A DNA stretch of 34,508 bases, from NCBI RefSeq assembly GCF_025965585.1, contig NZ_JAOPWR010000534.1, positions 1 through 34,508 on the forward strand. The letters are read 5' to 3'. The number at the start of each line of letters is the position of its first letter. Positions within the stretch are counted from its first letter, which is position 1. The notes under the pieces are model-generated. The model made no database searches. It was given only the letters and a program-made list of their open reading frames with translations, and was not told the origin of the DNA. Positions 12,003 to 29,243 of the stretch are shown here, one piece after another. A program made the translations under genes and the position numbers. The DNA is from Pseudonocardia sp. (GTDB lineage Bacteria; Actinomycetota; Actinomycetes; Mycobacteriales; Pseudonocardiaceae).

Positions 12003-12050
12003 GGTGTTTCTCCGGCTCGGGTTCGGCGGGGGGAGGCAAGGGGAACAGGG

Positions 12051-12932
12051 CTAGCCCTTCACGGAGCCCGCCGTGAGGCCGCTGATGAGGTAGCGCTGGA
12101 TCAGGATGAAGACCACGACGGGCGGCAGGGACGTCACGAGGCTGGCCGCCATCAGGTTGTTCCACTGCGGCAGCGCGCCGTCGGCGGAGGCGCTGGCGAA
12201 CGCCTGGATGCCCACCCCGACCGTCTGCGTGGTGTCCGAGGTCAGGACACTGGCGAAGAGCACGTCGTTCCACGCCAGGACGAACGCGAAGATCGCGGTG
12301 ACCACGATCGCCGGCCGAGCCAGCGGGAACACCACCTTGCGCAGCGTCTGCAGGCGGCTGGCGCCGTCCAGCGCCGCCGCCTCCTCCAGCTCGAGCGGGA
12401 TGGTCGACAGATATCCGCTCAGCATCCAGATCGTGTACGGCAGGCTGAACGACATGTAGGTCAGGATCAGCACCGGCGTCGATCCGATCAGCCTGACGCC
12501 GATCATGTTCTGGATCTGCACGTAGATCGTGTACAGCGGGATCATCAGCACGATCCCCGGCGTCGAGTACGAGGCGAGCAACGACAGCCGGAGCGTGTCG
12601 CGGAACCGGAACCGGAACCGCGACAGCACATAGGCCGCCCCGAACCCGACGATCGAGGAGGCCACGGCGGTGCAGGTGGAGACGACGAGACTGTTCTCCA
12701 GGTTGCCGGCCAGGTCGATGATGCTCCAGATGTCCGCGAAGGCCCGCAGCGTCAGGTGGCCGACCGACAACGTGCTCCCTGCGATGTCCGTGGGCTGCAA
12801 CGAGACCAGCACCATGTACGCGACGGGCACCAGGGCCAGCAGCCCGAAGACCAGGGCCCCGGCGTGCAGGAGCCATCGGGCGCCGGCGCGCCTGCCGGGC
12901 CGGGCGCGGAGCATCAGAGCGGCGTCAGTCAT
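12051..12932 (-). CDS. Carbohydrate ABC transporter permease (MalG-like)
   Basis: This 293-residue inner-membrane permease of the CUT1 family has about six transmembrane helices; the first is near residues 22-46. The EAA loop that docks the ATPase is visible as ELEEAAALDGASRLQTLRKV. The C-terminus (LISGLTAGSVKG) is typical of MalG-type subunits. The ATG at 12932 overlaps the end of the partner permease by 8 bases. A hexanucleotide tandem repeat at 12601-12620 encodes RFRFRFR. No ATPase gene is present in this locus, so the permease pair probably uses a shared MsiK-type ATPase encoded elsewhere, as is usual for CUT1 systems in actinomycetes. Confidence 0.93.
   Translation of the reverse strand: MTDAALMLRARPGRRAGARWLLHAGALVFGLLALVPVAYMVLVSLQPTDIAGSTLSVGHLTLRAFADIWSIIDLAGNLENSLVVSTCTAVASSIVGFGAAYVLSRFRFRFRDTLRLSLLASYSTPGIVLMIPLYTIYVQIQNMIGVRLIGSTPVLILTYMSFSLPYTIWMLSGYLSTIPLELEEAAALDGASRLQTLRKVVFPLARPAIVVTAIFAFVLAWNDVLFASVLTSDTTQTVGVGIQAFASASADGALPQWNNLMAASLVTSLPPVVVFILIQRYLISGLTAGSVKG
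12601..12620 (+). repeat. Hexanucleotide tandem repeat (CGGAAC x3)
   Basis: Three perfect CGGAAC units followed by CG lie inside the MalG-like permease gene. They encode an alternating Arg-Phe run at a cytoplasmic loop. The repeat is in frame, so gain or loss of a unit would keep the frame. Confidence 0.7.
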
Positions 12933-13878
12933 CGGAGCCGGCCCTCCTCAGGTAGTAGGCGACCGGGACCAGCAGCACCAGCAGGTTGACCACGGCGATC
13001 GCCGTGGAGTGCCCGAAGTCGAACGACGTGAACGACGCCGTGTAGATGGTGATCGGCAGCACGTTGGCCTGCGGTGGCGGCGGGCTCCCGAACAGGATGA
13101 AGGGCAGCGTGAAGTTGTTGAAGTGGCTGATCGTCGTCAGGCACGCCGCCAGGGTGAGGGTCGGCCGGATCGAGGGGAGGGTGATCGACCAGAAGCGTCG
13201 GATCGCGCCGGCACCGTCCACCACGGCGGCTTCGTAGTACTCGTGCGGGATGGACTGCAGCGTCGCCAGCACCATGATGTAGACGAACGGCCAGCTGGTC
13301 CAGATCCCGGTGATCACCAGCGCCCAGAACGAGTTCGGGCCGATCAGCCACAGGGTGTCGCCGTCCCCGAGCCCGGTCGCCCGCATGAGCTGGTCGATGG
13401 CACCGGTGCCGGTCTGGAACATCAGGCGCCAGATCAGCGCACTGCCGAAGGCCGGCAGGATGAACGGGAGCAGCATCACCGTCCGCAGCACGGCCCGTCC
13501 CCGGAACCGCTGGTTCACCAGCAGGGCCGCGCCGATCCCCAGCGGCGTCGCGACGACCGTGCTGAGGACGCTGAACAGCACGCTGGTGCGCAGCGATCCC
13601 AGGATCGACAACGAGCTGGACGGGTTCAGCACGTCCAGGTAGTTGCGGGCGCCGACCCCACGCGCCGAGCTCATGTCCCCGATGGTGAACTGGTTCAGCG
13701 CCGTCAGGCTGATGAGCACCGCAAGGAGCAGCGGCAGGTAGGTCACCACCGCCATCAGCGCGAAGCTGGGCGACATCAGCCAGTAGGGAACGCGGTGTGC
13801 AGTCCGGCGCCGGCGACGGCGCGGTGGGGAAGCCTGCGCGACGGACCCGCGCTGTTCGAGAACCGACTGACTCGTCAC
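12925..13878 (-). CDS. Sugar ABC transporter permease (MalF-like)
   Basis: This 317-residue CUT1 permease starts with an Arg-rich cytoplasmic tail (SPPRRRRRRTAHRVPYWLM) and then has about six membrane helices. The EAA loop reads YYEAAVVDGAGAIRRFWSIT. The GTG start at 13878 overlaps the TGA of the binding-protein gene by four bases, and its own end overlaps the MalG-like gene. It is the membrane partner of the MalG-like subunit; together with the lipoprotein they import a sugar or glycoside. Confidence 0.93.
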   Translation of the reverse strand: MTSQSVLEQRGSVAQASPPRRRRRRTAHRVPYWLMSPSFALMAVVTYLPLLLAVLISLTALNQFTIGDMSSARGVGARNYLDVLNPSSSLSILGSLRTSVLFSVLSTVVATPLGIGAALLVNQRFRGRAVLRTVMLLPFILPAFGSALIWRLMFQTGTGAIDQLMRATGLGDGDTLWLIGPNSFWALVITGIWTSWPFVYIMVLATLQSIPHEYYEAAVVDGAGAIRRFWSITLPSIRPTLTLAACLTTISHFNNFTLPFILFGSPPPPQANVLPITIYTASFTSFDFGHSTAIAVVNLLVLLVPVAYYLRRAGSDD

Positions 13879-15296
13879 CGCTCACTCTCCAAGGCCTGGG
13901 CCAACGTCTGGTCGGCGGTGTCGAGCTGCTTGCGCAGCGCGGCCGGGTCGTAGGTCCCGTTCGCCGCGAGCTCGGCGAAGCTCGGCTTCACGGCGGCGGA
14001 CAGCAGCGGTGAGACCTGCGCGAACGACGGTGACCACGGCGTCGGTGCCGCATTGACCGCGGCCTCGTAGGTGACCGCCCAGACGCCCTGCTTCGTCTCC
14101 GGATAGGCGGTGAAGGTCTCGGTGGTGACCGGGATGCCGCCGACCTCCTGCCACGTCATCCGCTGGATGTCGGGATCACCCATGATCTTGGCCATCCCGA
14201 GGGCGAGGGTCCGGTTGCGGGTGTACTTGGAGATCGCCCAGGTCGCCCCGCCGAGATAGGTCTGCACCGGCTTCTGCCCGGCCGGCAGGGCCGTGCGCCC
14301 GTACGGGACCGTCGGGTTGCCCGCGAGGGCCCAGTCGTCGGCGACGCCGGTGCCGCCCATGCTGCTGATCGCCTGGGTGAAACCGCAGCAGAACATCGCG
14401 GTCGTCCCCGCGGTGAACTGCTTGATCTGCTCGGCGGAGACGTTGGTCGCGTCCCGCCTGTTGGCGATGCCGTACTTCGCGATCCAGTCCAGCCAGAAGC
14501 TCGTGGCCTCCACGACCTGCGGGGAGTTGAGCCGGGACGTTCTGCCGTCGGCGCTGATCAGCTCTCCACCGAGCTGCGTGGTGAGCAACCAGATCACGTG
14601 CCAGGGGTCGGACGGTTCGGCGGCACCGAGACCGACCGCGTACCGGCCCTGCGCGGGTGCGGACAGCTGTCGTCCGATGTCGACGAACTCGGTCCACGTC
14701 TGCGGCGGGGCGGTGATGCCGGCCTGCTGGAACGTCCGGCGGTTGTAGTACATGGCCATGGTGGACGCGTAGTACGGGATCCCTACGAGCTCGTCGGTCG
14801 TCCGGCCGGTCGCCGCCAGCGCCGTCGGCAGGTATCTGCCCTTGCCTCCCACGGCCGCCCAGTCGCTGTCGGAGAGCACCTCGAACACCCCGACGGCCTG
14901 GCCGGTGGGCAGGGTCTGCGGGCTGACCTCGAAGATGTCGGGGCCGTCCCGGCTCGTGGCGGCGGTGATCACCGACGTGGTCACCGCCGAACCGAGGGTG
15001 ACCACGTTGAACCTCACCGAGGCGCCGGGATGGGCGGCTTCGAACTTCTTCTGCATCGCCGCCAGGATCCGGCGCTGCCCCGCCGGTGCCGTCGGGCTCT
15101 GCGCGACCTGGACGGTGATGCTGTTCGGATCCTCGCCCCGCCCGCACGCGCTCAGCAGCGCCGGCGCGGCGACCGCTGCCACTCCGACCCCGCCGAGCTT
15201 GAGGACACCCCGCCGGGACAAGGGTCTCCCCCTCCCCGCCGACCGCCTCGGTCCTGCCTGCTGCATCCGGCGTTCACCGGTGCTGTCGGGCCGCAT
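13875..15296 (-). CDS. Extracellular sugar-binding lipoprotein (ABC transporter)
   Basis: This is a 473-residue solute-binding protein of the CUT1 (extracellular solute-binding family 1) type. The signal carries twin arginines at 28-29 (LSRRGVLKLGG) and a lipobox ALLSAC with lipidated Cys51, so Tat export and lipid anchoring are likely. The mature fold shows DIFEVSPQT, YYASTMAMYYNRRTFQQAGI and LGGATWAISKYTRN, all typical of the family. The ATG at 15296 is used; an ATG at 15266 is possible. It is the first gene of the importer operon. An inverted CCTGT/ACAGG pair around a -10-like GATACA (15319-15338) lies just upstream. Confidence 0.92.
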   Translation of the reverse strand: MRPDSTGERRMQQAGPRRSAGRGRPLSRRGVLKLGGVGVAAVAAPALLSACGRGEDPNSITVQVAQSPTAPAGQRRILAAMQKKFEAAHPGASVRFNVVTLGSAVTTSVITAATSRDGPDIFEVSPQTLPTGQAVGVFEVLSDSDWAAVGGKGRYLPTALAATGRTTDELVGIPYYASTMAMYYNRRTFQQAGITAPPQTWTEFVDIGRQLSAPAQGRYAVGLGAAEPSDPWHVIWLLTTQLGGELISADGRTSRLNSPQVVEATSFWLDWIAKYGIANRRDATNVSAEQIKQFTAGTTAMFCCGFTQAISSMGGTGVADDWALAGNPTVPYGRTALPAGQKPVQTYLGGATWAISKYTRNRTLALGMAKIMGDPDIQRMTWQEVGGIPVTTETFTAYPETKQGVWAVTYEAAVNAAPTPWSPSFAQVSPLLSAAVKPSFAELAANGTYDPAALRKQLDTADQTLAQALESER

Positions 15297-15318
15297 TCCT
15301 CACGCTCCTTCAGGGCGT

Positions 15319-17783: not shown

Positions 17784-18791
17784 GTGCCAGTCCTCGACAT
17801 CGTGATCGCGATGACGCCGGAGTTCGTCGACATGACGCTGGAGCCGTCGGTCCGCGCGCGGCTGGAAAGGTTCGGCCGGGTCCGCTACTCCCCCACCCCG
17901 ACCGACCACGGCTCGCCGGCCGCACGGGCGCTGCTCGCCACGGCCGACGTGGTCGTCACCGGGACCGGGACCGCCCTGCTGGACGACGACACGTTCACCG
18001 CCGCACCGCGGCTGAAGGCGGTGATCCACGCTGCCGGATCGCTGCGTCCCGTGGTCACAGCCTTCGCCTACGACCGCGGCGTGCGGCTCTCCTCCCAGGC
18101 CGGGGCCAACGCCCTCCCGGTCGCCGAGTACACGCTGGCGATGATCCTGCTGGAGCTCAAGGGCGTCCGGGGGACCGAGCAGATCTATCGCCGCGAGCGC
18201 CGGGAGGTCGACGTCGACGGCCTGCTCGCAACCAGCGGCACCTACGGACGACGGGTGGGAGTCATCAGCGCGTCCGCCATCGGGCTCCGGGTGATCGACC
18301 TGCTCCGGCCCTTCGACGTGCACGTGGTGATCCACGACCCGTACCTGAGCGACGCCGCGGCGGCCGAGCTCGGGGTCGAGCGCGCGGACCTGCACACCGT
18401 CCTGTCCACATCGGACGTCGTGACCCTGCACGCCCCGCTGCTGCCCGAGACCCGCGGCATGATCGGTGCACCCGAGCTCGCCGCGCTCCGCGACGGGGTC
18501 ACGTTCATCAACACCGCACGCGGTGCCCTGATCGACCAGGACGCATTGGTCAGCGAGCTCTGCAGCGGCCGGATCCGTGCCGTCATCGACGTCACCGACC
18601 CCGAGGTGTCCGCACCCGACTCGCCGCTGTGGGACCTCGACAACGTCGTCCTGACACCCCACGTCGCGGGCTCGCGCGGCCTCGAGCTGCACCGGATCGG
18701 GGAGCGGGCCGTGGCCGAGGTGGGCCGGCTCGCCCGCGGTGAACCACTCGCCTACGAGGTGACGCGCGAGAGGTACGCGACGAACGCGTGA
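17784..18791 (+). CDS. D-isomer-specific 2-hydroxyacid dehydrogenase family protein
   Basis: This 335-residue NAD-dependent dehydrogenase interconverts a 2-hydroxyacid and a 2-oxoacid. The catalytic Arg (INTARGALID), Glu (DVTDPEV) and His (TPHVAGS) are kept. The cofactor loop is altered: the usual GxGxxG reads SASAIG in VGVISASAIGLRV, so two glycines are serine; related actinobacterial proteins often have GAS at this place. The start is GTG at 17784, with GGAGG eight bases upstream; a GTG at 17775 is less suitable. It follows the acyltransferase fusion by 98 bases, with its own putative operator. It may handle an acid made in the sugar pathway. Its 3' end converges with the deacylase gene. 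Confidence 0.88.
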   Translation: MPVLDIVIAMTPEFVDMTLEPSVRARLERFGRVRYSPTPTDHGSPAARALLATADVVVTGTGTALLDDDTFTAAPRLKAVIHAAGSLRPVVTAFAYDRGVRLSSQAGANALPVAEYTLAMILLELKGVRGTEQIYRRERREVDVDGLLATSGTYGRRVGVISASAIGLRVIDLLRPFDVHVVIHDPYLSDAAAAELGVERADLHTVLSTSDVVTLHAPLLPETRGMIGAPELAALRDGVTFINTARGALIDQDALVSELCSGRIRAVIDVTDPEVSAPDSPLWDLDNVVLTPHVAGSRGLELHRIGERAVAEVGRLARGEPLAYEVTRERYATNA

Positions 18792-18814: not shown

Positions 18815-18833
18815 CCGCGGTCGTCAACCGCGG
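18815..18833. terminator. Small hairpin between convergent genes
   Basis: CCGCGGT and ACCGCGG pair over 7 bases around a 5-base loop, at the end of the deacylase gene and 23 bases after the dehydrogenase stop. There is no T-tract. It is a weak candidate for a bidirectional terminator. Confidence 0.35.
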
Positions 18834-20467
18834 CGGTACACCCGGCCCGCGCGGGAGGGGCGGTAGCCGCCACCGTCGACGATCACGGTGCCGTTGACGA
18901 GCACGTACTCGATCCCGGTCGGTGACGACGTGGTGTCGGAGTAGGTCGTCGTGTCGCCGACCTCGTCGAGGTCGAAGACCACCAGGTCGGCCGCGCATCC
19001 CGGCCCGATCCGGCCGATCGTCGACAGGCCGACCCGCCCGGCGGCCAGCCCCGTCATCCGGTGGATCGCCTGCTCGAGGGACAGCAGCCCCTCGGATCGC
19101 ACGAAGTGGCCGAGCATCCGGGGGTAGGCGCCGAAGGCTCCGCGGTTGGGGGTGCCTTCGCCGGTGACGATGGCGTCGGTCTCCAGCGCGGTGTAGGGCA
19201 GGCCGAGGACCTCCCGCAGCGGCGCGTCGGACCGCATGCTGCCGGCCGAGCCGACCACGAGCATCATCGTCTCGCCGCGGTCGGCGACGAGCAGGTCCAT
19301 CGTGGCGTCGAACGGGTCGCGGCCGGTGCGCTCCGCGAGCTGGGCGAGCGAGCCGCCCTCGTGCTCGCGGTACTGGGCCGAGCCGACGGTCAGCAACAGG
19401 ATGTTGTCGTAGCCGAGCGACGCGATCATGTTGTCGGTCCAGCCGCCGGACGGGGTGGGCCACTGCGGGCGCTCGTCCTCGATGCTGCGCCGGATCTCCG
19501 TGCGGGTGCGCGGGTCGTCGAGCCGCGCGGCCACCTCGTCCATCCCGCCCTCGACCGCCCAGGGCGGGAGCAGCGCGGCCAGCGTCGTGTTCCCGGCGAT
19601 GTAGGCCTGGCAGTCGGTGGCGACGTCGATCCCCCGCCTGCGGGCCACCTCCAGGGAGTCGATCGCCCGGCCGATCCGCGGCCAGTTCGACTCCCCCAGC
19701 GCGCACAGGTGCGAGAACTGGGTCCGCACCTCGCCGTGGGCAGCGATCTCGACGACCTCGTTGACGGCGTCGACGAGGGTCTCCGACAGTCCCCGGCTGT
19801 GGCAGGTGAACAGCCCGTCGGTGCGTCCGACGAGGCGGGCCAGGTGCGTCACCTCCGCCGTGTCGGCGTACATGCCCGGTGCGTACGCCAGGCCGGCCGA
19901 CATCCCGAAGGCGCCGGCGGCGAGGGACTCCTCGAGCAGCGCGGTCATCTGCCGCAGCTCGGCGGCATCCGGCTCCCGCTTGGCGAAACCCATCGTGGCG
20001 ATCCGCAGTGCGCCGTGGGCCGCCAGTGGCACCACGTTGAGCGCGACCCCGGCGTCGTCGAGGGTGTCGAGGTAGTCCGCCATCGTCGGCCAGCCGCTGC
20101 GCGAACCACGCGAGCGCAGGAACGAGGTGTAGCCCCGCATCTCGGGATCGAAGGCCGGGACCGCCGGGGCCGGGGCGAAACCACAGTTGCCGGTGACCAG
20201 CGTCGTGATGCCCTGACGCAGGAAGCAGCTCAGGATGTCCTCGTGCCGCGGGTCGGCCAGCACGAAGTCGGAGTGGCTGTGGATGTCGACGAAGCCCGGG
20301 CTGACCACCTTCCCGCGGGCGTCGATCACCCGATCCGCCTGCACGCCCTCGGGGAGGGTCCCGACGTAGACGATGTCGCGTCCCAGGACCCCGACGTCCG
20401 CGACGAACGCCGGAGCACCGGTCCCGTCCACGACGAGCCCGTCACGGATCAACAAGTCCAGGTTCAC
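18824..20467 (-). CDS. N-acyl-D-amino-acid deacylase (amidohydrolase family)
   Basis: This 547-residue amidohydrolase removes an acyl group from an N-acyl-D-amino acid or a related N-acylated compound. Metal-site motifs are in place: HSHSD (His63, His65, Asp67), Cys95 in TGNCGFAPA, His in FTCHSRG and His in TQFSHL. The family signatures LAALLPPWA and GAFGAYPRMLGHFVR are also present. The GTG start at 20467 overlaps the TGA of the kinase gene by four bases. It is the last gene of the eight-gene importer operon. In this company (amino-sugar kinase, GlmS-like SIS protein) the natural substrate may be an N-acylated amino sugar, an amino-sugar acid or a D-amino conjugate. Substrate is inferred. 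Confidence 0.9.
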   Translation of the reverse strand: MNLDLLIRDGLVVDGTGAPAFVADVGVLGRDIVYVGTLPEGVQADRVIDARGKVVSPGFVDIHSHSDFVLADPRHEDILSCFLRQGITTLVTGNCGFAPAPAVPAFDPEMRGYTSFLRSRGSRSGWPTMADYLDTLDDAGVALNVVPLAAHGALRIATMGFAKREPDAAELRQMTALLEESLAAGAFGMSAGLAYAPGMYADTAEVTHLARLVGRTDGLFTCHSRGLSETLVDAVNEVVEIAAHGEVRTQFSHLCALGESNWPRIGRAIDSLEVARRRGIDVATDCQAYIAGNTTLAALLPPWAVEGGMDEVAARLDDPRTRTEIRRSIEDERPQWPTPSGGWTDNMIASLGYDNILLLTVGSAQYREHEGGSLAQLAERTGRDPFDATMDLLVADRGETMMLVVGSAGSMRSDAPLREVLGLPYTALETDAIVTGEGTPNRGAFGAYPRMLGHFVRSEGLLSLEQAIHRMTGLAAGRVGLSTIGRIGPGCAADLVVFDLDEVGDTTTYSDTTSSPTGIEYVLVNGTVIVDGGGYRPSRAGRVYRRG

Positions 20468-21444
20468 GCTGCCGCCTCGATCGCTGCCGTCAGATGGGGG
20501 GTGAGCTCGATGGTGCCGATCAGGCCGGGGCACGCCGTGGCAGCGGCCTCCATCGCCAGCCGGACCGACCCGACGATGGGTGAGGCCTGCGCCTGCTGCC
20601 AGGACAGGCACCGGGCCGGGCCGGCGCTGTGCCGCCGGACGCAGGCTCGGAACAAGGCGTCCCCCGACACCCCGCCCACCAGGGCGAACGGCGTCGGTGG
20701 ATCGCCCTCGTCGCGCACGGCCGCCGCGGCGGCCCCGGCGAACTCGACCAGGGCGGTCGCGGCCGCCTCGACGATCCGCTCGGCCACGGGATCGCCGGCA
20801 CTCGCGTGGTGGAGCACCACCGGGGCCAGCGCCGCGACGTCCGAGGGCTGCATGCGGAAGTGCATGTGGTCGATGATCGACTGCGGCTCGGTGAGCCCGA
20901 GCTCCCGCAGGACCGGACCGCACAACGCAGTGGGAGGTCCGACGCGGTCGTGCTGGCGCAGCACCGCGATCAGCGCACGCCGCCCGATGTCGTAGCCACT
21001 GCCCTCGTCACCGAGCAGCGCTCCCCACCCGCCGGCCCGGGCCTCCCGGGCGCCGTTGCGGGCGAAGGCCACGGAGCCGGTGCCGGAGATGGCGACCACC
21101 CCGGACGAGCCCGTGCCGAACGCGCCCATCCACGCCCCCATCGCGTCGTTGGCCAGCGACCAGTCGATGTCGGGCGCCGCCTCGCGCAGCCCGTCCGCCA
21201 GCGCGGCCTCGACCTCCTTGGTGTCCAACCCGGCCGCGCAGACCGCCGCATACACCGGTGCTCCGGGCGGCGTGTCGCGCAGCGCCGCGCGGACGAGTCC
21301 CACGAGCGTGCGACCGCTGGCCTGCGGGCCGTGGCGGTGGACGTTGGCCCCCGGGCCGGTCACGCGGCCGATGACGGTGCCGGTCGAGCTGATCGCGGCG
21401 CACCGGGCGCGCGTGCCGCCGGCGTCGACTCCCACGAAGATCAT
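20464..21444 (-). CDS. BadF/BadG-type N-acetylglucosamine kinase-like protein
   Basis: This 326-residue ASKHA-fold kinase is of the BadF/BadG/BcrA/BcrD family, the group holding eukaryotic-type GlcNAc kinase and bacterial glucosamine kinases. Phosphate loops are clear: GVDAGGTRARC (Asp7-Thr11), VAISGTGSVAF, and the family stretch GGWGALLGDEGSGYDIGRRA. The ATG at 21444 overlaps the stop of the ROK gene by four bases (ATGA), and its end overlaps the deacylase start. The predicted reaction is ATP-dependent phosphorylation of the imported amino sugar. The sugar specificity cannot be fixed from sequence. Confidence 0.88.
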   Translation of the reverse strand: MIFVGVDAGGTRARCAAISSTGTVIGRVTGPGANVHRHGPQASGRTLVGLVRAALRDTPPGAPVYAAVCAAGLDTKEVEAALADGLREAAPDIDWSLANDAMGAWMGAFGTGSSGVVAISGTGSVAFARNGAREARAGGWGALLGDEGSGYDIGRRALIAVLRQHDRVGPPTALCGPVLRELGLTEPQSIIDHMHFRMQPSDVAALAPVVLHHASAGDPVAERIVEAAATALVEFAGAAAAAVRDEGDPPTPFALVGGVSGDALFRACVRRHSAGPARCLSWQQAQASPIVGSVRLAMEAAATACPGLIGTIELTPHLTAAIEAAA

Positions 21445-22529
21445 ATGAGCAGTCGCCGCATGTCGGTGTTGACCTGCTGGTGGACCGCGGCCGCGGCACC
21501 GCGCAGCGTGGCGTCCGCGCCCAGCCGTGACGGGATTACGGTCGGCGGGTGGGGCAGCACATCGGCGAGCCGGTCGGTGAGCTCCTCGTCGAGTCGTCGG
21601 CCGTAGCGGAGGATCTCCTCGCCGAGGACGATGACGCCCACGTCGAGCACCGCCGCAACCGCCACGCAGGCGGACGCCAGGATCTCGGTGATCCCGGTGG
21701 TCGACGCCTCGTCCGCCGTGCCGTTCTCCCCGACCGCGCGCATGTGGTCGAACAGCGTGGTCTCCAGCGGGCCGAAGTCGCGCGACCCGCGCTCGCCGGA
21801 CGGCGCGGGCAGGTACCCGATCTCGCCGGCCGCGAAGTGCACGCCGCGGTGCAGCGTTCCCCCCAGGATCAGACCTGCGCCCAGACCGCCGCGGACGCCG
21901 AACATGACCAGGTCGGACGCGTCGTGCTCGCCGAAGGCATGCTCGCCCAGCGCGCCGAGGTTGAGGTCGTTGTCGACCACCACCACCTCGGTCCGCACCG
22001 TGGCCCGGACCTCGTCGAGCAGCCGGACGTCACGCCACCCGAGGCTCGGCGCCCACTCGATGGTGCCGGTCAGCGGGTCGGTGACGCCGGGGACCGCGAG
22101 TCCGATGCCGACCACGTGCTCCAGGCCGCTCACCTGCTTCGCGAGCCAGCGGACGAAGGTCGCCGGGCTGCGCAGCGCCGTCGCGGGGACGTCGTGGAGC
22201 GAACCGGCGACGATGCCGCCGTTCAGGTCGACGAGAGCGTGCCGGGCCGGCTCACCGCTCAGGTCCACCGCCAGCACCGTGCGGGATCCGGCGTCGAGCC
22301 CGTACAGGTCGCCCCGTCGGCCGCCGGTCGCCGGTCCCTCGCCGACCGGGGTGACCACACCGGCCTCGGTCAGCGTCGTCACCACCGCCGAGACCGTCGG
22401 GCCGCTCAGACCCGTCTCGCGCGCGATACCGGCCCGGGTCATGGCGCCGACCCGCCGCAGGGTCTCCACGACCGCGCGCAGGTTCACCTCGCGGATGTAG
22501 CCGCGGTCGGCCGTCCGGACGTCAAACAT
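21441..22529 (-). CDS. ROK-family transcriptional regulator
   Basis: This 362-residue ROK protein has an N-terminal winged helix (about 15-65: VVETLRRVGAMTRAGIARET, LSGPTVSAVVTTLTEAGVV) and a sugar kinase-like ROK domain (LAVDLSGEPARHALVDLNGG, VGIGLAVPGVTDP, VVVDNDLNLGALGEHAFG). The ROK zinc motif CxCGxxGCxE is missing: the matching region reads PSGERGSRDFGPLE. It is therefore probably a pure sensor-repressor, not an active kinase. The ATG at 22529 overlaps the preceding gene by 8 bases. It is in the operon it probably controls; the 21-bp near-palindrome at 28081-28101 is the best operator candidate. Confidence 0.9.
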   Translation of the reverse strand: MFDVRTADRGYIREVNLRAVVETLRRVGAMTRAGIARETGLSGPTVSAVVTTLTEAGVVTPVGEGPATGGRRGDLYGLDAGSRTVLAVDLSGEPARHALVDLNGGIVAGSLHDVPATALRSPATFVRWLAKQVSGLEHVVGIGLAVPGVTDPLTGTIEWAPSLGWRDVRLLDEVRATVRTEVVVVDNDLNLGALGEHAFGEHDASDLVMFGVRGGLGAGLILGGTLHRGVHFAAGEIGYLPAPSGERGSRDFGPLETTLFDHMRAVGENGTADEASTTGITEILASACVAVAAVLDVGVIVLGEEILRYGRRLDEELTDRLADVLPHPPTVIPSRLGADATLRGAAAAVHQQVNTDMRRLLI

Positions 22530-23739
22530 AGGTCGGCAGCCGGTTCCCGGCCTGATCGAACACACCGTGCAACACGGGCCGCTCCCCTGCGCCGCTGACG
22601 ACGGCGATGTTCGCCCGCGTGACGAAGGACTGGATGCGGAAACCCATCACGACGGTCGAGCCGACGGGCGCGGTCTGCGGCGTGCCGCTGATGTAGCCGT
22701 AGTAGTCGATGCCCCCGAACCCGCCGGTGGTGCCGGACCCCGCGCCGTGGAACTCCTCGCGGTGCTCGTGGATCTCCTCCAGGCTGTTGCCGACCATGAC
22801 GGTCCGCCGGAACTCCGGGTCCAGCCACACCGGGTCGTCGACGAAGAAGCCGCCGCCGTAGACGTAGGCGCGATCGCCCACGTGGTGGGCCACCTCGGTG
22901 ACGTAGCAGGCGGCCGGGATCTCCGGCAGGTCCTGCACGAGGTGGTAGGGCGTGGTGCCGAGGAACCCGTGCCCGGGCTCGACGTGGGTGGCGCCGAGCT
23001 CGGCCTGCGTGCGCAGCGTGTAGACGGAGGTGTTGCCGGGGGCGTTCACCTGGAGCACCTCGAGGCCCATGCCCTCGAGGATGTCGCGGGCCCGCAGCAA
23101 CGTCGCGAAGTTCGCGGTGGGGACGGGCTTCGCCGCCTCGGAGTAGGCCAGCGCCGGGAACGTCGTCACGCCCACGACCCGAACGCCCGGCAGTGCCGCG
23201 ATCTCCGCCGCCGTCGTGCGCAGGTCGTCGATGAGCACGCCGCCGTCCATGCCGGGCAGGTACGTGTCCCTGGCCGGGTCGGCGACGCGGATCAGCAGGT
23301 CCTGCGTGCGGCCCTGGCGGTGGGCCTCGGTCGCGATCTGCCGTGCCTTGGCCGCGCTGAAGACCGAGATGGCCTCGGGTTCGGCGGCCACGATTCGCGG
23401 GATGTCGATCGTCGGCACCTGCACCAGGTTCCCGACGTGTCCCAGCCGGAAGCCGTGGGCCAGTAGCGCGTTGGCGTCGGCGATGTCCACCGCGACGGTC
23501 TCGCCACCGCCCGCGCCGACCAGCGCCTCGGTGATCACCGGGTTCCGGCCGATCTGCTTGGTCATGAAGTACAGCGCCAACCCGACGGCATCGGCCTCGG
23601 CCCGGATGACGGCGGCGTTGGCCGCGATCGCGTCGCGGTCGAGCACGAAGGTGTTCGGCGGGATCCGCCGCTGCAGGGCGAGATCGGCCGCCGCCGTCAG
23701 CAGGGCAGGGTTGCGCCGCCGGAGGAGCTCAAGAAACAC
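22522..23739 (-). CDS. YhfX-like PLP-dependent protein (alanine racemase fold)
   Basis: This 405-residue fold-type III PLP protein starts VFLELLRRRNPALLTAAADL and continues PPNTFVLDRDAIAANAAVIR and LYFMTKQIGRNP. That pattern resembles E. coli YhfX and the wider alanine racemase/D-serine dehydratase/D-threonine aldolase group. Lys61 in FMTKQ is the probable PLP lysine. The glycine-rich GHVGNLVQVP and EPGHGFLGTTPYH are also family-like. The GTG at 23739 is chosen because it matches the expected N-terminus; an upstream in-frame GTG at 23781 would add 14 residues. It overlaps the ATPase gene by 11 bases. Possible roles are racemisation, deamination or dehydration of a D-amino or amino-sugar acid; the reaction of YhfX itself is not known to me. 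Confidence 0.78.
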   Translation of the reverse strand: MFLELLRRRNPALLTAAADLALQRRIPPNTFVLDRDAIAANAAVIRAEADAVGLALYFMTKQIGRNPVITEALVGAGGGETVAVDIADANALLAHGFRLGHVGNLVQVPTIDIPRIVAAEPEAISVFSAAKARQIATEAHRQGRTQDLLIRVADPARDTYLPGMDGGVLIDDLRTTAAEIAALPGVRVVGVTTFPALAYSEAAKPVPTANFATLLRARDILEGMGLEVLQVNAPGNTSVYTLRTQAELGATHVEPGHGFLGTTPYHLVQDLPEIPAACYVTEVAHHVGDRAYVYGGGFFVDDPVWLDPEFRRTVMVGNSLEEIHEHREEFHGAGSGTTGGFGGIDYYGYISGTPQTAPVGSTVVMGFRIQSFVTRANIAVVSGAGERPVLHGVFDQAGNRLPTYV

Positions 23740-24847
23740 GGGCCACCACCACTTCGTCGAATCGGAGGTCGAGACGATCACCGCTGTCGGGATCGAAGGC
23801 CAGCGCGTGCGCCCAGTCGACAGCCAGGTCGACCGGCGTGTCGGCGTCGAGCACCTCGTCGTCGCTGCGCACCGCGACGAGCTCGTCCCCCCGGTCGGTG
23901 GTGATCGTGTACTTCACCTGGCCGCCGATGATCTCGCGGGTGAGGACCCGGAAGGCCGACGACGCGCTGCGCGTGATGCGCAGGTGCTCGGGCCGGACAC
24001 CGAGGTCGAACCGCTCGGGCAGCGGGCCACCGGGTGGGGTGAGCACCAGGCTCCCGCCGAACGCGGAGAGCGTGACGCCGTCCTGGTGCTCGATCGTGAC
24101 GAGGTTGAACGGCTGCACGCTGACGAAGTCGGCGAGCCACGCCGAGGCCGGCTGCCGGTACAGGGTCAGTGGGTCGGCCACCTGCACCAGCGTGCCGTTA
24201 CGCATCACCGCCACCCGATCGGCGATGCTCATCGCCTCCTCCTGGTCGTGGGTGACGAACACCGTCGTGGTGCCGAACTGCCGGTGCAGCTTGGCGAGCT
24301 CGGTGCGCATCTGACGCCGGAGCTGGGCGTCGACGGCCGAGAACGGCTCGTCCATGAGCAGCAGGGCGGGATGGGAGACAAGGGCCTTGGCCACCGCGGA
24401 GCGCTGCCGCTCGCCGCCGGAGACCTCGTGCGGCTTGCGGTCGAGCAGGTGGTCGATGCGCAGCCAGCCGGCGACCTCGTCGATGCGCCGCTGGATCTCC
24501 CCCGCCGGCAGCTTCTGCATCTTCAGCGCGAACGCGATGCTCTGCCGCAGGGACAGGTGCGGGTAGAGCATCGAGGACTGGAAGACCACGGCGACGTTGC
24601 GCCGCTCGGCGGGGATGTCGGTGACGTCCTCGTCGCCGAACCGCAGTCGCCCGGAGTTGACGGGCTCGAGCCCGGCCAGCACGTTGAGCAGCGTGCTCTT
24701 GCCGCCGCCGGACGGGCCCAGCACCGCGAGCAGCTCACCGGGACGGATCTCGAGGTCGACGTCGTCCAGGGCGGCGCGCGGGGCCCTGCCGTAGCGCTTG
24801 GTCACCGACTCGACCGAGATGCCGACCTGCAGCACTTCAGGTTCCAT
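23729..24847 (-). CDS. ABC transporter ATP-binding protein (MalK/UgpC type)
   Basis: This 372-residue ATPase energises the importer encoded by the next three genes. Walker A is GPSGGGKST (44-52), followed by the Q-loop VFQSSMLYPHLS, signature SGGERQR, Walker B LLLMDEPFSAVD and H-loop VTHDQEEA. A C-terminal TOBE-like regulatory domain follows (FDLGVRPEHLRI). The ATG at 24847 is preferred; an in-frame TTG at 24877 would overlap the permease gene. Having its own ATPase sets this CUT1 system apart from the neighbouring importer at 12.0-15.3 kb, which has none. Confidence 0.94.
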   Translation of the reverse strand: MEPEVLQVGISVESVTKRYGRAPRAALDDVDLEIRPGELLAVLGPSGGGKSTLLNVLAGLEPVNSGRLRFGDEDVTDIPAERRNVAVVFQSSMLYPHLSLRQSIAFALKMQKLPAGEIQRRIDEVAGWLRIDHLLDRKPHEVSGGERQRSAVAKALVSHPALLLMDEPFSAVDAQLRRQMRTELAKLHRQFGTTTVFVTHDQEEAMSIADRVAVMRNGTLVQVADPLTLYRQPASAWLADFVSVQPFNLVTIEHQDGVTLSAFGGSLVLTPPGGPLPERFDLGVRPEHLRITRSASSAFRVLTREIIGGQVKYTITTDRGDELVAVRSDDEVLDADTPVDLAVDWAHALAFDPDSGDRLDLRFDEVVVARVS

Positions 24848-24863
24848 GACAGCTGTCCGTTCC

Positions 24864-25724
24864 TCAGAGGCCGACAAGGTTCACCTTGCGGATGTAGCGC
24901 TGGAAGAGGCCCGCCACGAGCAGCGGCGGGATGAGGCCCAACACCGTCGCGCTCGCGACGTCGGTGGGCACCGAGACCTGGAAGAACATGCTCGACAACG
25001 CCGGCGGGAAGGTCTGCGCGGGCGTGCCGGTGTTGAAGATGAGGGCGAACGTGAACTCGTCCCAGGAGGTGATGAACGCGATCACCGCCATCGCCGTCAT
25101 GGAGTTCCGCGACGCAGGCACGACGACGCGGGCGAACGCCAGCCACCGCGAACAGCCGTCCACCCGGGCCATCCGCTCGAGGCCGGGCGGCAGGCCGCCG
25201 AAGAAGCTGGTCCCGATCCACACCAGCAGCGGGACCGTGATCGTCATGTGGGCGATGACCAGGCCGGTCTTCGTGCCCGACAGCCCGAGGCCCTGGTAGA
25301 GCGCGAAGAACGGGATCGTGGTCGCGACCGGTGGGATGGACCGGGTGGCCACGATCGTGAGCAGTCCGGCCTGGCGGAACCGCATCTGGACCCGCGACAG
25401 CGCGTAGGCGGCGGGCACCGCGACGATCATGCTCAGCACCGTCACCCAGACGGCGACCTCGGCGCTGTTGAGCAGGCCCTGGCGGATCAGCGGCCCGTAC
25501 GCGTTCGGGCCCTGGGGGACGCCGTTCCAGTCAGGAGCGTCGCCGCCGAGCAGCCGGACGTAGTTGGCCAGCGTCGGCTGGTGCGGGAACAGGTGGATGT
25601 CCGCCGAGGCGAACTCGTGGTGGTACATCAGCGAGATCAGCACGATCCAGACGATGGGCACCACCGTCCAGACCAACGCGATCAACGCGAGGATGTGGAT
25701 GAGGATCTTCCGTCGCACGCTCAT
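24864..25724 (-). CDS. Carbohydrate ABC transporter permease (MalG-like)
   Basis: This is a 286-residue CUT1 permease with about six membrane helices. The EAA loop reads GLERMARVDGCSRWLAFARV, and the C-terminus LFQRYIRKVNLVGL is typical of MalG-type subunits. The ATG at 25724 overlaps the stop of the partner permease by four bases (ATGA). It forms the membrane channel with the MalF-like subunit for the compound processed by the downstream kinase and deacylase. Confidence 0.93.
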   Translation of the reverse strand: MSVRRKILIHILALIALVWTVVPIVWIVLISLMYHHEFASADIHLFPHQPTLANYVRLLGGDAPDWNGVPQGPNAYGPLIRQGLLNSAEVAVWVTVLSMIVAVPAAYALSRVQMRFRQAGLLTIVATRSIPPVATTIPFFALYQGLGLSGTKTGLVIAHMTITVPLLVWIGTSFFGGLPPGLERMARVDGCSRWLAFARVVVPASRNSMTAMAVIAFITSWDEFTFALIFNTGTPAQTFPPALSSMFFQVSVPTDVASATVLGLIPPLLVAGLFQRYIRKVNLVGL

Positions 25725-26692
25725 GCCCCCGCCGCCTTGCCCTGCCGCGACCCGGATCTCATCGCCACGACGTAGTAGCCGGCGGTCAGCACCGTGACCA
25801 CGACCAAGAGGATCCAGGACATCGCGGCGCCGGGCCCGAAGCTCAGGTCCTGGAACGTCTCCTGGTAGATGGCGTAGGTCAACGTCTGGGACGCGCCCCC
25901 CGGCCCGCCGGACGTCAGGAAGTAGATCAGGTCGAACGCCATCGCCGCCTGGCCCCCGACGAGCACGACGTAGATGGCGAACGGCAGCCGGATGTAGGGC
26001 ATCGTGATCGCGCGGAACCGCCGCAGGATGCCCATGCCGTCGACCTTCGCGAGCTTGTAGAGGTCGTCCGGGATCACCTGCAGGCTCGCCAGCAGGAAGT
26101 AGGCCCCCAGCGGGGCGAACTGCCAGGCGTGTACCAGCGCCAGCGCCGGGATCACCGTGTTCGTCGAGAGCAGATCGAGCGGTGGCAGACCCAGGTGCTG
26201 CGCGATCGCGGCGAGCAGTCCGTACTGCGGGCTGTAGACGTAGCGCCAGACGACGCCCGCCGCGTAGGTCGACAGCGACCAGGGCAGCACGATCAGCGCC
26301 ATCAGGACCGGACGCCCGACGAACCTCTCGCGCAGCAGCAGCGCCAGGCCCAGCGCCACGGCGGCGGCCAGCACCGTCACGCACACGACGTAGTAGACGG
26401 TCAGCCACGTGGAGTTCCAGAAGTCCGGGTCGCTGAGCACCTGCCCGAAGTTGTCGAGGCCGGCGAAGCGCCGGACCCCGGTGAAGGGGTTCGTGTGCGA
26501 CAGGCTCAGGTACAGCGAGTACGCCACCGGGTAGATCACGATCGCCACCAGCAGGACAGCCACCGGCGCGACGAGCAGCAGACCGAACCCGGTTGGGCTG
26601 ATCCGCGAGCTGAACGGCGTCCTCGGCCGGGCGGTGGACTCCTCGACGGGTTTCGCCGGACCCGGCGGCGCGGGCTCAGTTACCGTACTCAT
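25721..26692 (-). CDS. Sugar ABC transporter permease (MalF-like)
   Basis: This 323-residue CUT1 permease has a Pro-rich cytoplasmic N-terminus of about 33 residues and then about six membrane helices. The EAA loop is DDLYKLAKVDGMGILRRFRA. The ATG at 26692 lies inside the end of the binding-protein gene (17-base overlap), which implies translational coupling. Confidence 0.93.
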   Translation of the reverse strand: MSTVTEPAPPGPAKPVEESTARPRTPFSSRISPTGFGLLLVAPVAVLLVAIVIYPVAYSLYLSLSHTNPFTGVRRFAGLDNFGQVLSDPDFWNSTWLTVYYVVCVTVLAAAVALGLALLLRERFVGRPVLMALIVLPWSLSTYAAGVVWRYVYSPQYGLLAAIAQHLGLPPLDLLSTNTVIPALALVHAWQFAPLGAYFLLASLQVIPDDLYKLAKVDGMGILRRFRAITMPYIRLPFAIYVVLVGGQAAMAFDLIYFLTSGGPGGASQTLTYAIYQETFQDLSFGPGAAMSWILLVVVTVLTAGYYVVAMRSGSRQGKAAGA

Positions 26693-28067
26693 CGATCAGG
26701 CTCTCTGCTTTCGTCTGCAGCTTCTTCACGACAGCGGCCGGGGTCTCGTCCCCGTTGACCGCCTTCGGCAGTTCCCGGGACGCGTACGTCATCCACACCG
26801 AGCCCCACGTGGTGTGGAACAGGTCGGTCGCGACCTGCGGATCGGTCAGGTAGTCCTTCAGGACCGGCCAGTTCGTCTCCGGATCGGGCAGCCACTTCGC
26901 GACCGACTCGGCCAGCGCGGGGCTGTTGTTCACCGCGCTGTAGCCCTGGGTCAGGTAGTAGTTGCCCGCCCAGGCGTCGGGCACGTCGAACCGGCCGGTG
27001 CGCCGGTCGCGGTATCCGAAGTGCTGGGCCAGGTCGTAGGCCTGCGCCAGGGCGGCGTCGTCCTGCCCGTAGTTGCCGACCAGGTACGCGCCGACGTGCA
27101 GCATGCCCCACTTCTGCCCCTGTTGCGGGACGGGGACGATCTTGCCGGCGACCTGCGACGTCTGCGGGTCGGAGAAGGTCTTGATGTCGTACTGCAGCTG
27201 TGGTGAGTAGGCGATGCCGCCCTTCGCGAACGCCTCCGTCCAGTCCGACTCCTGGAAGGTCAGGACGCCCGGGGGCACCAGCCCCTCCTGGTACAGGCTG
27301 CGCCACTGGCCGAGCATGTCGACCACCTCGGACTGCTCGTCGAAGAGCGGCCGCCCGCCCGGGCCGAACAGCGGGATGTTCCGGTTCAGCGCCTCCTGGA
27401 TGAACCCGAACGGGATGCCGAACCAGGGCGCGGACCAGAACGACGGCAGGTAGGGCGTGTCGCTCGCGCCCCGGCGCTTGATCAGCCGCACCTGGGCGTA
27501 GAGCTCCTCGTAGGTCTTCGGGTACTGACCTTCGAGGTCGGCCTTGCGCAGCACGTCCGTGTTGGCGAACAGCGCCCCGTTGACGAAGGCGAAGTACGGC
27601 AGCCCGACGAGCTTGCCGTTGATGGTCAGGGCATCGCGGACGGCCGGGAGCATCTCCTTCTCGGCGGCGTCCTTGGCCCAGAACCGCTCGAAGTCGTGGA
27701 TCCAGTTCGCCTCGGCGTACGCCTGGGGCATGTGCCAGAGGCTGTAGACCATGTCCAGCGGCGTGCCCTGGCGCAGCAGGTTGGTCATCAGCGACGGGTA
27801 GTCACCGGCGATCACGCCCAGGTCCACCCGGGCGCCGTAGGTCTTCTCGAACGCCGCCACCTCGGACGTCACGAAGTCGGGGTAGGCACCCCAGATCCGC
27901 ATCGCCAGGTCGCCACCCCCGGTACTCGGCGGCGCCAGAGGCGGGCCCGCAGCCGGGGCCGGCCGAGCACCACCCCCACCGCACGCCTGAAGCAGAGGCG
28001 TGGCCCCGAACGCCAGTGCGGCCAGGCCGCCGGCCTTCAGGAATCGCCTGCGCGAGGTGTCCACCAT
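26676..28067 (-). CDS. Extracellular solute-binding lipoprotein (ABC transporter)
   Basis: This 463-residue family 1 solute-binding protein has a Tat-type signal (SRRRFLKAGGLAALAFG) and a lipobox TPLLQAC with Cys29 as the lipid anchor. A short Gly/Pro/Ala linker leads into the binding domain (MRIWGAYPDFVTSEVAAFEK). The domain is rich in aromatic residues, as in sugar-binding members (FWSAPWFGIPFGF, WAGNYYLTQGYSAV). The ATG at 28067 follows GAAGGAAGG. It is the first gene of the eight-gene operon, and a 21-bp near-palindrome lies 14 bases upstream of its start, where a repressor would block transcription. Confidence 0.92.
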   Translation of the reverse strand: MVDTSRRRFLKAGGLAALAFGATPLLQACGGGGARPAPAAGPPLAPPSTGGGDLAMRIWGAYPDFVTSEVAAFEKTYGARVDLGVIAGDYPSLMTNLLRQGTPLDMVYSLWHMPQAYAEANWIHDFERFWAKDAAEKEMLPAVRDALTINGKLVGLPYFAFVNGALFANTDVLRKADLEGQYPKTYEELYAQVRLIKRRGASDTPYLPSFWSAPWFGIPFGFIQEALNRNIPLFGPGGRPLFDEQSEVVDMLGQWRSLYQEGLVPPGVLTFQESDWTEAFAKGGIAYSPQLQYDIKTFSDPQTSQVAGKIVPVPQQGQKWGMLHVGAYLVGNYGQDDAALAQAYDLAQHFGYRDRRTGRFDVPDAWAGNYYLTQGYSAVNNSPALAESVAKWLPDPETNWPVLKDYLTDPQVATDLFHTTWGSVWMTYASRELPKAVNGDETPAAVVKKLQTKAESLIDEYGN

Positions 28068-28080
28068 GCTCGGTAGCCTT

Positions 28081-28101
28081 CCTTCGGAAAGTTTCGTAAG
28101 G
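28081..28101. promoter_or_regulatory. Candidate ROK operator, 21-bp near-palindrome
   Basis: The site reads CCTT-CG-GAAA-G-TTTC-GT-AAGG. Sixteen of 21 positions agree with the reverse complement, and all mismatches fall in the centre or the two 2-base gaps. It lies between the divergent binding-protein and SIS genes, close to the former. The ROK repressor encoded in the operon is the likely ligand. Confidence 0.6.
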
Positions 28102-28175
28102 TCTAGCTGGCGGTTCGGTGAACTGTCAAGAGCCGTCCCGGGACACGCCGGGGACGGCAGGCGTGGTGGAGGTTC

Positions 28176-29243
28176 GTGGTGACGCAAGGATCCGTTCTGC
28201 AGGGGCCGCCGACGAGCGGCCGGGCGATGGCCGCGGAGATCGCCGAGCAGCCCGAGGTGTGGCGCCGCTCGCTCACCGGGCGCGCCCGCCTCGCGCCCGT
28301 CGTCGCGGTGCTGAAACGGAGGCAGCCGCGCTTCGTGCTGCTCGCCGCCCGCGGCACGTCCGACCACGCCGCTCTGTACGCGAAGTACCTCTTCGAGGTC
28401 GTGCACGGCATGCCGGTGGGGCTGGCCTCACCGTCCACCGTGACCGCCTACGGCTCGACGCCGGATCTGCGCGACACGCTGCTGATCGCGGTCAGCCAGT
28501 CGGGCCAGTCCCCCGACCTGGTCGAGATGGTGCAGACCGGCCGCCGCCACGGAGCGATCACGCTGGCGGTCACCAATGCCCCCGCGTCACCGCTCGCGCA
28601 GGCCGCCGAGCTGCACATCGACGTTCTCGCCGGTGAGGAGCGGGCCGTGGCCGCGACGAAGTCCTACACCGCGCAGCTGCTGGCGCTGTACTTGCTGGTG
28701 GACATGCTCCGCGACGGCGACGGCTCAGCTCTGGAGGCGCTCCCGGCCGCCGGCGAGGCGTTGAATGCCCGGTCCGACGACATGCGGGCGCTCGCGGCGC
28801 GCTACCAGTTCGCCTCCCGCCTCGTGGTCACCGGCCGCGGCTACGCCTACCCGACCGCCCGCGAAGGCGCGTTGAAGCTGATGGAGACCTGCTACCTCAG
28901 CGCGCAGGCCTTCTCCGGAGCCGACCTGCTGCACGGCCCGCTGGCGATGGTCACGTCCCAGGTCCCGGTCCTCGCCGTAGCCCCGGACGGCGTCGGGGGC
29001 CGGATCATGGGCGAGGTGCTGCAGCGCCTGCACGCGGTCGGCGCGCACGTCTTCACCATCGGCGGCGCCGAGGCGATCGCCGCCTCCAGCGCCGGACTGC
29101 AGCTGCCGGCCGGGATCGACGAAGCGGTGTCCCCGCTGATCGAGATCCTCCCGCTCCAGCAGCTCGCGCTCCACCTGGCGATCACGCGCGGCGAGGACCC
29201 CGACGTCCCGCGCGGGCTGTCGAAGGTCACCAAGACCTTGTGA
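28176..29243 (+). CDS. GlmS-like double SIS domain protein (possible amino-sugar phosphate deaminase)
   Basis: This 355-residue protein consists of two SIS domains, like the isomerase half of glucosamine-6-phosphate synthase without the glutaminase half. Key motifs are LLAARGTSDHAALYAKYL, VSQSGQSPDLVEM, AATKSYTAQ and GRGYAYPTAREGALKLMET. The C-terminal LSKVTKTL is GlmS-like. Such stand-alone proteins include NagB-II and AgaS, which deaminate or isomerise amino-sugar phosphates. Two adjacent GTG codons (28176 and 28179) are possible starts; the second is better spaced from GGAGG. It is divergent from the operon that holds the amino-sugar kinase, and both promoters can be controlled by the site at 28081-28101. 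Confidence 0.88.
   Translation: MVTQGSVLQGPPTSGRAMAAEIAEQPEVWRRSLTGRARLAPVVAVLKRRQPRFVLLAARGTSDHAALYAKYLFEVVHGMPVGLASPSTVTAYGSTPDLRDTLLIAVSQSGQSPDLVEMVQTGRRHGAITLAVTNAPASPLAQAAELHIDVLAGEERAVAATKSYTAQLLALYLLVDMLRDGDGSALEALPAAGEALNARSDDMRALAARYQFASRLVVTGRGYAYPTAREGALKLMETCYLSAQAFSGADLLHGPLAMVTSQVPVLAVAPDGVGGRIMGEVLQRLHAVGAHVFTIGGAEAIAASSAGLQLPAGIDEAVSPLIEILPLQQLALHLAITRGEDPDVPRGLSKVTKTL

Follow-up and report, generated by a model that had tools for sequence, protein, structure and literature searches.

Organization of the YhfX-containing operon

The stretch of DNA analyzed here, referred to as the window, comprises 34,508 nucleotides from Pseudonocardia sp., an actinobacterium of soil (positions 1 to 34,508 of contig NZ_JAOPWR010000534.1, assembly GCF_025965585.1) and contains an operon for a YhfX-like pyridoxal phosphate (PLP) protein, together with a divergent gene for a GlmS-like protein with two sugar isomerase (SIS) domains. 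The source contig, with a GC content of 71%, is one complete contig within a 6.8-Mb genome that was 98.77% complete. Eight genes were found head to tail between positions 18824 and 28067 on the minus strand, in the order binding lipoprotein, permease 1, permease 2, ATPase, YhfX, ROK repressor, BadF-type kinase and D-aminoacylase-like hydrolase, with the SIS gene (28227 to 29243) reading away from them. Adjoining genes of the minus strand shared 4 to 17 bp, the sole exception being a 16-bp gap ahead of the ATPase gene. Seven of the nine genes were in the list of likely frames obtained from GC by codon position, and the permease 2 and kinase genes were recognized as open reading frames through their translations.

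When 10 proteins were scanned with Pfam, the families found were SBP_bac_8, BPD_transp_1 (twice), ABC_tran with TOBE_2, Ala_racemase_N with YhfX-like_C, ROK, BcrAD_BadFG, Amidohydro_3 and SIS. The original prediction of an importer, a D-aminoacylase-type deacylase, a BadF-type kinase, a YhfX-like PLP protein and a ROK protein in one operon, with a divergent GlmS-like SIS protein, was thus upheld for each family. In two further Pseudonocardia genomes (G026 and G013; loci L028 and L029), all nine proteins were present at 86 to 97% identity with the gene order kept and the SIS gene divergent, indicating that the gene set is not a product of chance.

The YhfX protein and its gene neighborhoods

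The PLP protein (22522 to 23739, minus strand, with the GTG at 23739 chosen as start codon) matched the YhfX-like model PF21279 with 63.8 bits (cut-off 27) as well as PF01168. It matched the solved structure 4kbx with 235.5 bits, and the printed start of 4kbx is that of Escherichia coli YhfX. Lys61, in an MTKQ motif, was invariant in all nine sequences aligned, and the fold suggests that it is the PLP-binding lysine. No study assigning a function to YhfX or to the E. coli yhf operon was found in the literature searched, with the other yhf gene names included, nor did a search pairing pyridoxal chemistry, amino-sugar epimerase, mannosamine and glucosamine-6-phosphate deaminase return a paper. 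This agrees with the earlier suggestion that a YhfX-type protein in such a context appears undescribed.

The gene-neighborhood survey for co-occurrence, which had been proposed as a check, covered 87 loci, that is 86 and the window, whose row was entered manually; the near-copies L028 and L029 were left out. These loci formed 73 groups at 80% identity, one being counted per group, and some were cut by contig ends. Of 488 stretches that were confirmed, the best 80 made up the sample of relatives, which therefore leans towards relatives of the window protein. NagB or a GlmS-like SIS protein was found in the locus DNA at 30 of the 73 non-redundant YhfX loci: 15 of the 39 loci with classical yhf genes and 15 of the 34 others. 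In 21 of the 30 positive loci it lay within 3 kb of YhfX; a share of 0.35 was taken as the chance level at this distance, and the 30 distances were transcribed manually. Four of the NagB proteins near YhfX were scored against TIGR00502, and those of L042, L039 and L101 were over the cut-off while that of L082 was under it. In a quick YhfX tree with 24 open forks, the NagB/SIS trait changed 21 times and the choice of NagB or SIS five times, counts that do not separate gain from loss. A single shared ancestor is therefore a poor explanation. E. coli YhfX grouped in this tree with a Serratia protein, within the classical yhf set.

The hydrolase near YhfX varied from one group of loci to another. 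It was D-aminoacylase-like in the clade of the window, of the amidase-signature type in L036, L037 and L039, of the M20 type in L035, L056, L075, L097, L101, L107 and L120, and phosphotriesterase (PTE)-like in L023 to L026, in L087 and in 33 of the 39 classical groups. Family models were run for the hydrolases of L035, L036, L097, L101 and L104 and the other assignments were made by tblastn; L036 was classed as classical solely through a YhfT/YhfU pair 8 kb away. The PTE-like protein matched phosphotriesterases and organophosphate hydrolases, a match that does not separate an amidase from a lactonase. As a separate observation, L058 (6859 to 7980) and 16 other classical groups encode a 370-residue protein with no Pfam match, which is weakly amidase-like over a catalytic stretch (25.4 bits).

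The sugar kinases near YhfX were of the BadF or ROK type, the ROK kinase matches including ROK repressors and so being unused as counts. The importers also differed, with ATP-binding cassette (ABC) importers of the Mal and Rbs types and an amino-acid permease. When the Rbs-type binding protein from a related cluster was compared with the Protein Data Bank (PDB), it weakly resembled various sugar binders, with no ligand indicated. In L022 and L082, YhfX was accompanied by an amino-acid permease, a ROK protein and a deaminase, and none of the queried hydrolase types was in view. Because these two loci have a deaminase without the queried hydrolases, we place the action of YhfX on the amino sugar and not on the acyl part. 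In L081, L085, L099 and L102, a gene of the enzyme I type of the phosphotransferase system (PTS) followed yhfX/yhfW, with an HPr-type gene in three of them and Pfam confirmation for L099; YhfT/YhfU may therefore be a PTS-like importer.

YhfX is thus the fixed part of these gene sets, and the hydrolases, kinases and importers are interchangeable. That every part except YhfX is exchanged for unrelated families, with one slot per step (import, amide hydrolysis, phosphorylation and deamination, some loci leaving slots empty), speaks most strongly for an amino-sugar route. One locus, L021, was observed to combine YhfX with an ABC importer of the branched-chain-amino-acid type (recognized by eye), a distant SIS protein, a PfkB kinase and a class II aldolase, a gene content that resembles the galactosamine/tagatose route.

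Distribution among actinobacteria

YhfX was sparse, being found in 8 of 199 genomes among relatives and in 5 of 396 genomes from a sample of the phylum, with the source genome counted in each. When 11 actinobacterial genomes were searched whole, 11 of 14 YhfX loci were within 10 kb of SIS or NagB, compared to approximately 0.48 expected; the latter was derived from all SIS and NagB matches and is an upper bound, and a contig-edge fragment (G475) was dropped from this test. With lineages counted once, 8 of 11 loci were near SIS or NagB, compared to 0.40 expected. These findings show that YhfX is linked to amino-sugar deaminases beyond the window as well, which is the new observation here.

The gene set recurred in modified form in four actinobacterial genera besides Pseudonocardia. 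Operons with YhfX, ROK, BadF kinase and hydrolase were present in Actinoallomurus (L030), in Marmoricola (L031) and in two metagenome-assembled genomes of Modestobacter (L032 and L033), and the SIS gene was downstream in L031, L032 and L033. In Planosporangium flavigriseum (L034, 3979 to 11221), the hydrolase was followed by a relative of ribulose- or allulose-phosphate 3-epimerase (194.3 and 180 bits, both under the cut-off), a GlmS-like SIS protein, a ROK protein and two adjacent YhfX genes; a BadF kinase was not seen at this locus.

The hydrolase lacks the alpha-carboxylate site of D-aminoacylase

The hydrolase (18824 to 20467, minus strand; PF07969) is a D-aminoacylase-like amidohydrolase of a subfamily without the alpha-carboxylate site. 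It was closest to the D-aminoacylase of Alcaligenes faecalis (AfDam, 1m7j; 241 bits) and more distant from PpOngB (192.2 bits). When the window protein and six orthologues were aligned to 1m7j, the HxH motif, the beta-site metal ligands Cys, His and His, and the catalytic Asp were kept in all seven. In contrast to these residues, which it has in common with AfDam along with the fold family, the hydrolase is approximately 60 residues longer (547 compared to 484), and the alpha-carboxylate site was replaced in 7/7 sequences: Lys252 by Cys (six) or Ser (one), Tyr283 by Gln, Ser289 by Asn and Arg377 by Gly. A substrate without a carboxylate beside the amide, that is a neutral amide, is therefore expected. 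A neutral N-acyl sugar would fit, and N-acyl-D-amino acids and N-acetylglucosaminate (GlcNAc1A) would be disfavored.

These residues bear directly on two of the alternatives. If the substrate were an N-acyl-D-amino acid or a D-amino conjugate, the hydrolase would free a D-amino acid, YhfX would racemize it, and the kinase and SIS protein would handle the sugar of a glyco-conjugate. The closeness to AfDam, the alanine-racemase type of the N-terminal domain of YhfX and the amino-acid-type permeases at some YhfX loci all favor this, yet the alpha-carboxylate site is absent from all seven hydrolases, the Pfam scan assigned none of the operon proteins to a family of amino-acid catabolism, and L022 and L082 have YhfX, a permease and a deaminase with no queried hydrolase in view. 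We regard this explanation as unlikely.

The second alternative is use of oxidized chitin sugar as in Pseudoalteromonas, in which GlcNAc1A is converted by an OngB-like deacetylase and a PLP deaminase to 2-keto-3-deoxygluconate (KDG). The ong cluster, as described in PMC9537276, contains the D-aminoacylase-like OngB, OngC, the RidA-like OngD and KdgK. A deacylase of the D-aminoacylase family, a PLP protein and a sugar kinase are common to that pathway and the operon, and the relationship to PpOngB and the presence of a PLP protein within the same operon speak for it. The differences are that the carboxylate site, RidA and a PfkB-type kinase were not found in the window set, that its PLP protein is of the YhfX family and that an SIS protein is present, a deaminase without a role in that route. 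According to PMC12017989, OngB-like and D-aminoacylase-like sequences strictly conserve the residues holding the acetamido group and the alpha-carboxylate in place; the counterparts of the carboxylate-binding Lys, Tyr and Arg of OngB were absent from the window hydrolase when compared through AfDam. For this comparison, we took Lys252, Tyr283, Ser289 and Arg377 of AfDam as the counterparts of Lys254, Tyr285, Ser291 and Arg379 of PpOngB, an assignment of our own. Because the hydrolase is without the alpha-carboxylate site and the Pfam scan of 10 proteins revealed no KDG kinase or PfkB-type kinase and no member of the RidA family, neither the GlcNAc1A route, which we consider highly improbable, nor the D-amino option put forward beside it in the original prediction is supported.

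The SIS protein and the kinase belong to amino-sugar families

The SIS protein (28227 to 29243, plus strand; PF01380, 112 bits) is a GlmS/NagB-II-like double-SIS protein and a predicted amino-sugar-6-phosphate deaminase. It scored 215.6 bits with the NagB-II model over nearly the full model and 203 to 212 bits with the GlmS models, compared to 37.1 bits with the model of the fructoselysine deglycase FrlB (cut-off 430 bits). In the alignment, the protein retained the Glu, the His and the C-terminal Lys that we take to be the catalytic residues of the NagB-II/GlmS isomerase site. Two proteins with two SIS domains (E <= 0.001) were found in the whole genome: the window protein and a 623-residue frame, which is presumably GlmS itself.

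These scores also bear on the idea that the substrate is an Amadori compound, with the SIS protein as a deglycase splitting a phosphorylated fructosyl-amino acid and YhfX acting on the released amino acid. Deglycases do belong to the SIS family, and in E. coli K-12 the frl (fructoselysine) operon adjoins the yhf operon in convergent orientation. Against this stand the difference between the NagB-II and FrlB scores and the NagB proteins over their cut-off near YhfX in L039, L042 and L101, since NagB acts on glucosamine 6-phosphate and not on Amadori compounds. An Amadori route is accordingly quite unlikely in our estimation.

The kinase (20464 to 21444, minus strand; PF01869, 116.8 bits) is of the BadF type and NagK/MurK-like. 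Its best match in the PDB was 8zo3, a kinase of N-acetylmuramic acid (MurNAc) and N-acetylglucosamine (GlcNAc), with 97.3 bits. This match favors recycling of muropeptides or MurNAc, as does the finding of MurQ, the 6-phospho-muramidase MupG and a sucrose/MurNAc-type PTS permease in one gene run with classical yhf genes, in two different orders, in L046, L048 and L100 (of these, MupG alone was in the gene run with yhf genes in L043). In the source genome, however, no MurNAc-6-phosphate etherase was over the cut-off: the best match in the MurQ search (26 bits compared to a cut-off of 302) was the SIS protein of the window and the second weak match was the other two-SIS protein. Because no MurQ-type etherase reached the cut-off, the muropeptide option of the original prediction is very improbable for this operon.

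Amino-sugar catabolism, to which the SIS and kinase families point, had been predicted to mimic the NagA/NagK/NagB set by non-homologous families. The families of the deacylase, kinase and SIS deaminase do fit this description, although a BadF-type NagK (NF046058) and an SIS-type NagB-II (NF046059) are already named families in NCBIfam, so that only the deacylase and YhfX are unusual. The GlcNAc enzymes of the Shewanella type (NagK SO3507 and NagB-II SO3506) are of the same BadF-type kinase and SIS-type deaminase families. Compared to them, the window set has scores far under the equivalog cut-offs, a D-aminoacylase-like hydrolase in place of NagA, and YhfX, an ABC importer and a ROK repressor in addition.

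Importer, regulation and neighboring genes

The solute-binding lipoprotein (26676 to 28067, minus strand; PF13416, 52.8 bits) has a twin-arginine translocation (Tat)-type signal and an LLQAC lipobox, recognized by eye from the translation. Its PDB matches were weak relatives among assorted sugar binders, the best at 33.3 bits, with no ligand indicated. The other importer components, all encoded on the minus strand, were permease 1 of the MalF/UgpA type (25721 to 26692; PF00528; UgpA model, 120.6 bits), permease 2 of the MalG type (24864 to 25724; PF00528; GlcU, 80 bits and MalG, 67.7 bits) and an ATPase of the UgpC/MalK type with TOBE_2 (23729 to 24847; PF00005 and PF08402; UgpC model, 311.2 bits).

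The ROK-family transcriptional repressor (21441 to 22529, minus strand; PF00480, 91.5 bits; NagC model, 81.4 bits) has a winged helix-turn-helix and a ROK domain. A probable ROK operator, the 17-bp inverted repeat TTACGAAACTTTCCGAA, lies directly upstream of the lipoprotein gene (28083 to 28099, minus strand). The pattern TTANGAAANTTTCNNAA, built from this site, had no second exact match in the 6.8-Mb genome, with 0.00 expected in the window. A similar operator was present at the equivalent place in L028, L029 and L030, and GAAANTTTC was absent in L031 to L034. Because the pattern is unique in the genome, control by the ROK repressor through the predicted operator is probably confined to this locus. 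A promoter-like TTGACA-18-TAGACC (28100 to 28129, minus strand) was recognized by eye, and was also found upstream of the solute-binding protein gene in L028 and L029 and in altered form in L030. A strict sigma-70 promoter scan gave nothing upstream of the operon and did not list the TTGACA-18-TAGACC site.

On another contig of the source genome (C121, L122), a nagA-nagB-like pair was found with scores of 178 of 225.65 and 234.9 of 236.9 bits, both under the cut-off, and with PTS-like genes and a GntR-like regulator close by (recognized by eye). Ordinary GlcNAc use is therefore probably covered there and the operon probably serves another substrate. It could still be argued that the operon is a second route for ordinary GlcNAc, as its kinase and SIS protein are of the NagK and NagB-II families and the nagA-nagB-like pair is under the cut-offs. 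The two nag-like genes are, however, adjacent and clearly of those families, the operator of the window is not repeated exactly anywhere else in the genome, and the established GlcNAc pathway requires no PLP enzyme, making a second GlcNAc route very unlikely. The substrate is probably other than GlcNAc, GlcNAc1A, an N-acyl-D-amino acid or MurNAc.

Elsewhere in the window, a second sugar-type ABC importer is followed by an ADP-ribosylglycohydrolase-domain protein (10479 to 15299, minus strand), and a D-2-hydroxyacid dehydrogenase gene (17784 to 18791, plus strand) is convergent with the hydrolase gene. Relatives of this dehydrogenase at 33 to 34% identity were also near YhfX in L081, L085 and L090.

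A proposed route for an uncommon N-acylated amino sugar

The reading with the best support, from the protein families as well as from the co-occurrence of YhfX with deaminases, is the first proposal of the original prediction, in which a deacylase, a kinase and an SIS deaminase together break down an acylated amino sugar. With moderate confidence, we propose that the operon imports and degrades an uncommon N-acylated amino sugar other than plain GlcNAc, and that YhfX acts on the freed amine before deamination. The ABC importer would take up a neutral N-acyl hexosamine, either free or as a small glycoside, the D-aminoacylase-like hydrolase would strip the N-acyl group, and the BadF kinase would phosphorylate the sugar on either side of deacylation. 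YhfX would then apply PLP chemistry to the free amine of the sugar, whether phosphorylated or not, the simplest reaction for its fold being a change of configuration (epimerization) at the amine-bearing carbon. The SIS protein would release ammonia to give a ketose 6-phosphate for glycolysis, and the ROK repressor, probably sugar-sensing, would act on the single operator between the divergent genes. The gene content, linkage, conservation, residue patterns and co-occurrence of YhfX with deaminases are observed; the substrate, the order of the steps and the chemistry of YhfX are what we infer from them. More tentatively, YhfX may be a PLP enzyme whose substrates are free hexosamines or hexosamine 6-phosphates; as a C2 epimerase, for instance, it would make an uncommon 2-amino-2-deoxyhexose deaminable by NagB or NagB-II.

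Several findings weigh against this proposal. No NagB or SIS was found in the locus DNA at 43 of the 73 YhfX loci, some of them incomplete, and the SIS matches counted in L021 and L086 were just 26% and 23% identical. Among actinobacteria, 3 of the 14 YhfX loci had no SIS or NagB within 10 kb (G100, G175 and G364, the last of which is a classical yhf operon), and the SIS gene was not seen at the Actinoallomurus locus. The ROK protein in L022 and L082 is repressor-like, so that no kinase is shown there. The SIS protein was under the NagB-II equivalog cut-off (215.6 compared to 430 bits), as was the kinase under that of NagK_SO3507 (109.4 compared to 370 bits). In the hydrolase, an Arg sits one residue before the Arg377 position, making the argument from the carboxylate-site Arg dependent on the alignment, and the comparison with OngB was made solely through AfDam and the statement in PMC12017989, with Gln298 left out. 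Finally, a PLP-dependent epimerase that works on amino sugars is not known to us.

The E. coli yhf operon (yhfS, T, U, php, yhfW, X, Y and Z) has YhfX and an amidohydrolase-like enzyme (Php) in common with the window operon. In contrast, its YhfS, T, U, W, Y and Z families were absent among the window operon proteins in the Pfam scan, and the importer and kinase families of the window operon have no counterpart in it. If the proposal is correct, gene sets centered on YhfX, the E. coli yhf operon perhaps among them, would be catabolic routes for uncommon N-acyl hexosamines, and a PTS-like YhfT/YhfU would replace the importer plus kinase. The YhfX neighborhood, with NagB or a NagB-II-like protein, a sugar kinase and an amide hydrolase, leads to a concrete hypothesis of amino-sugar catabolism with an unusual PLP step. 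It would give a function to a widespread orphan family, make the E. coli orphan enzyme YhfX testable, and add a new branch to the bacterial use of amino sugars from cell walls, chitin and natural products.

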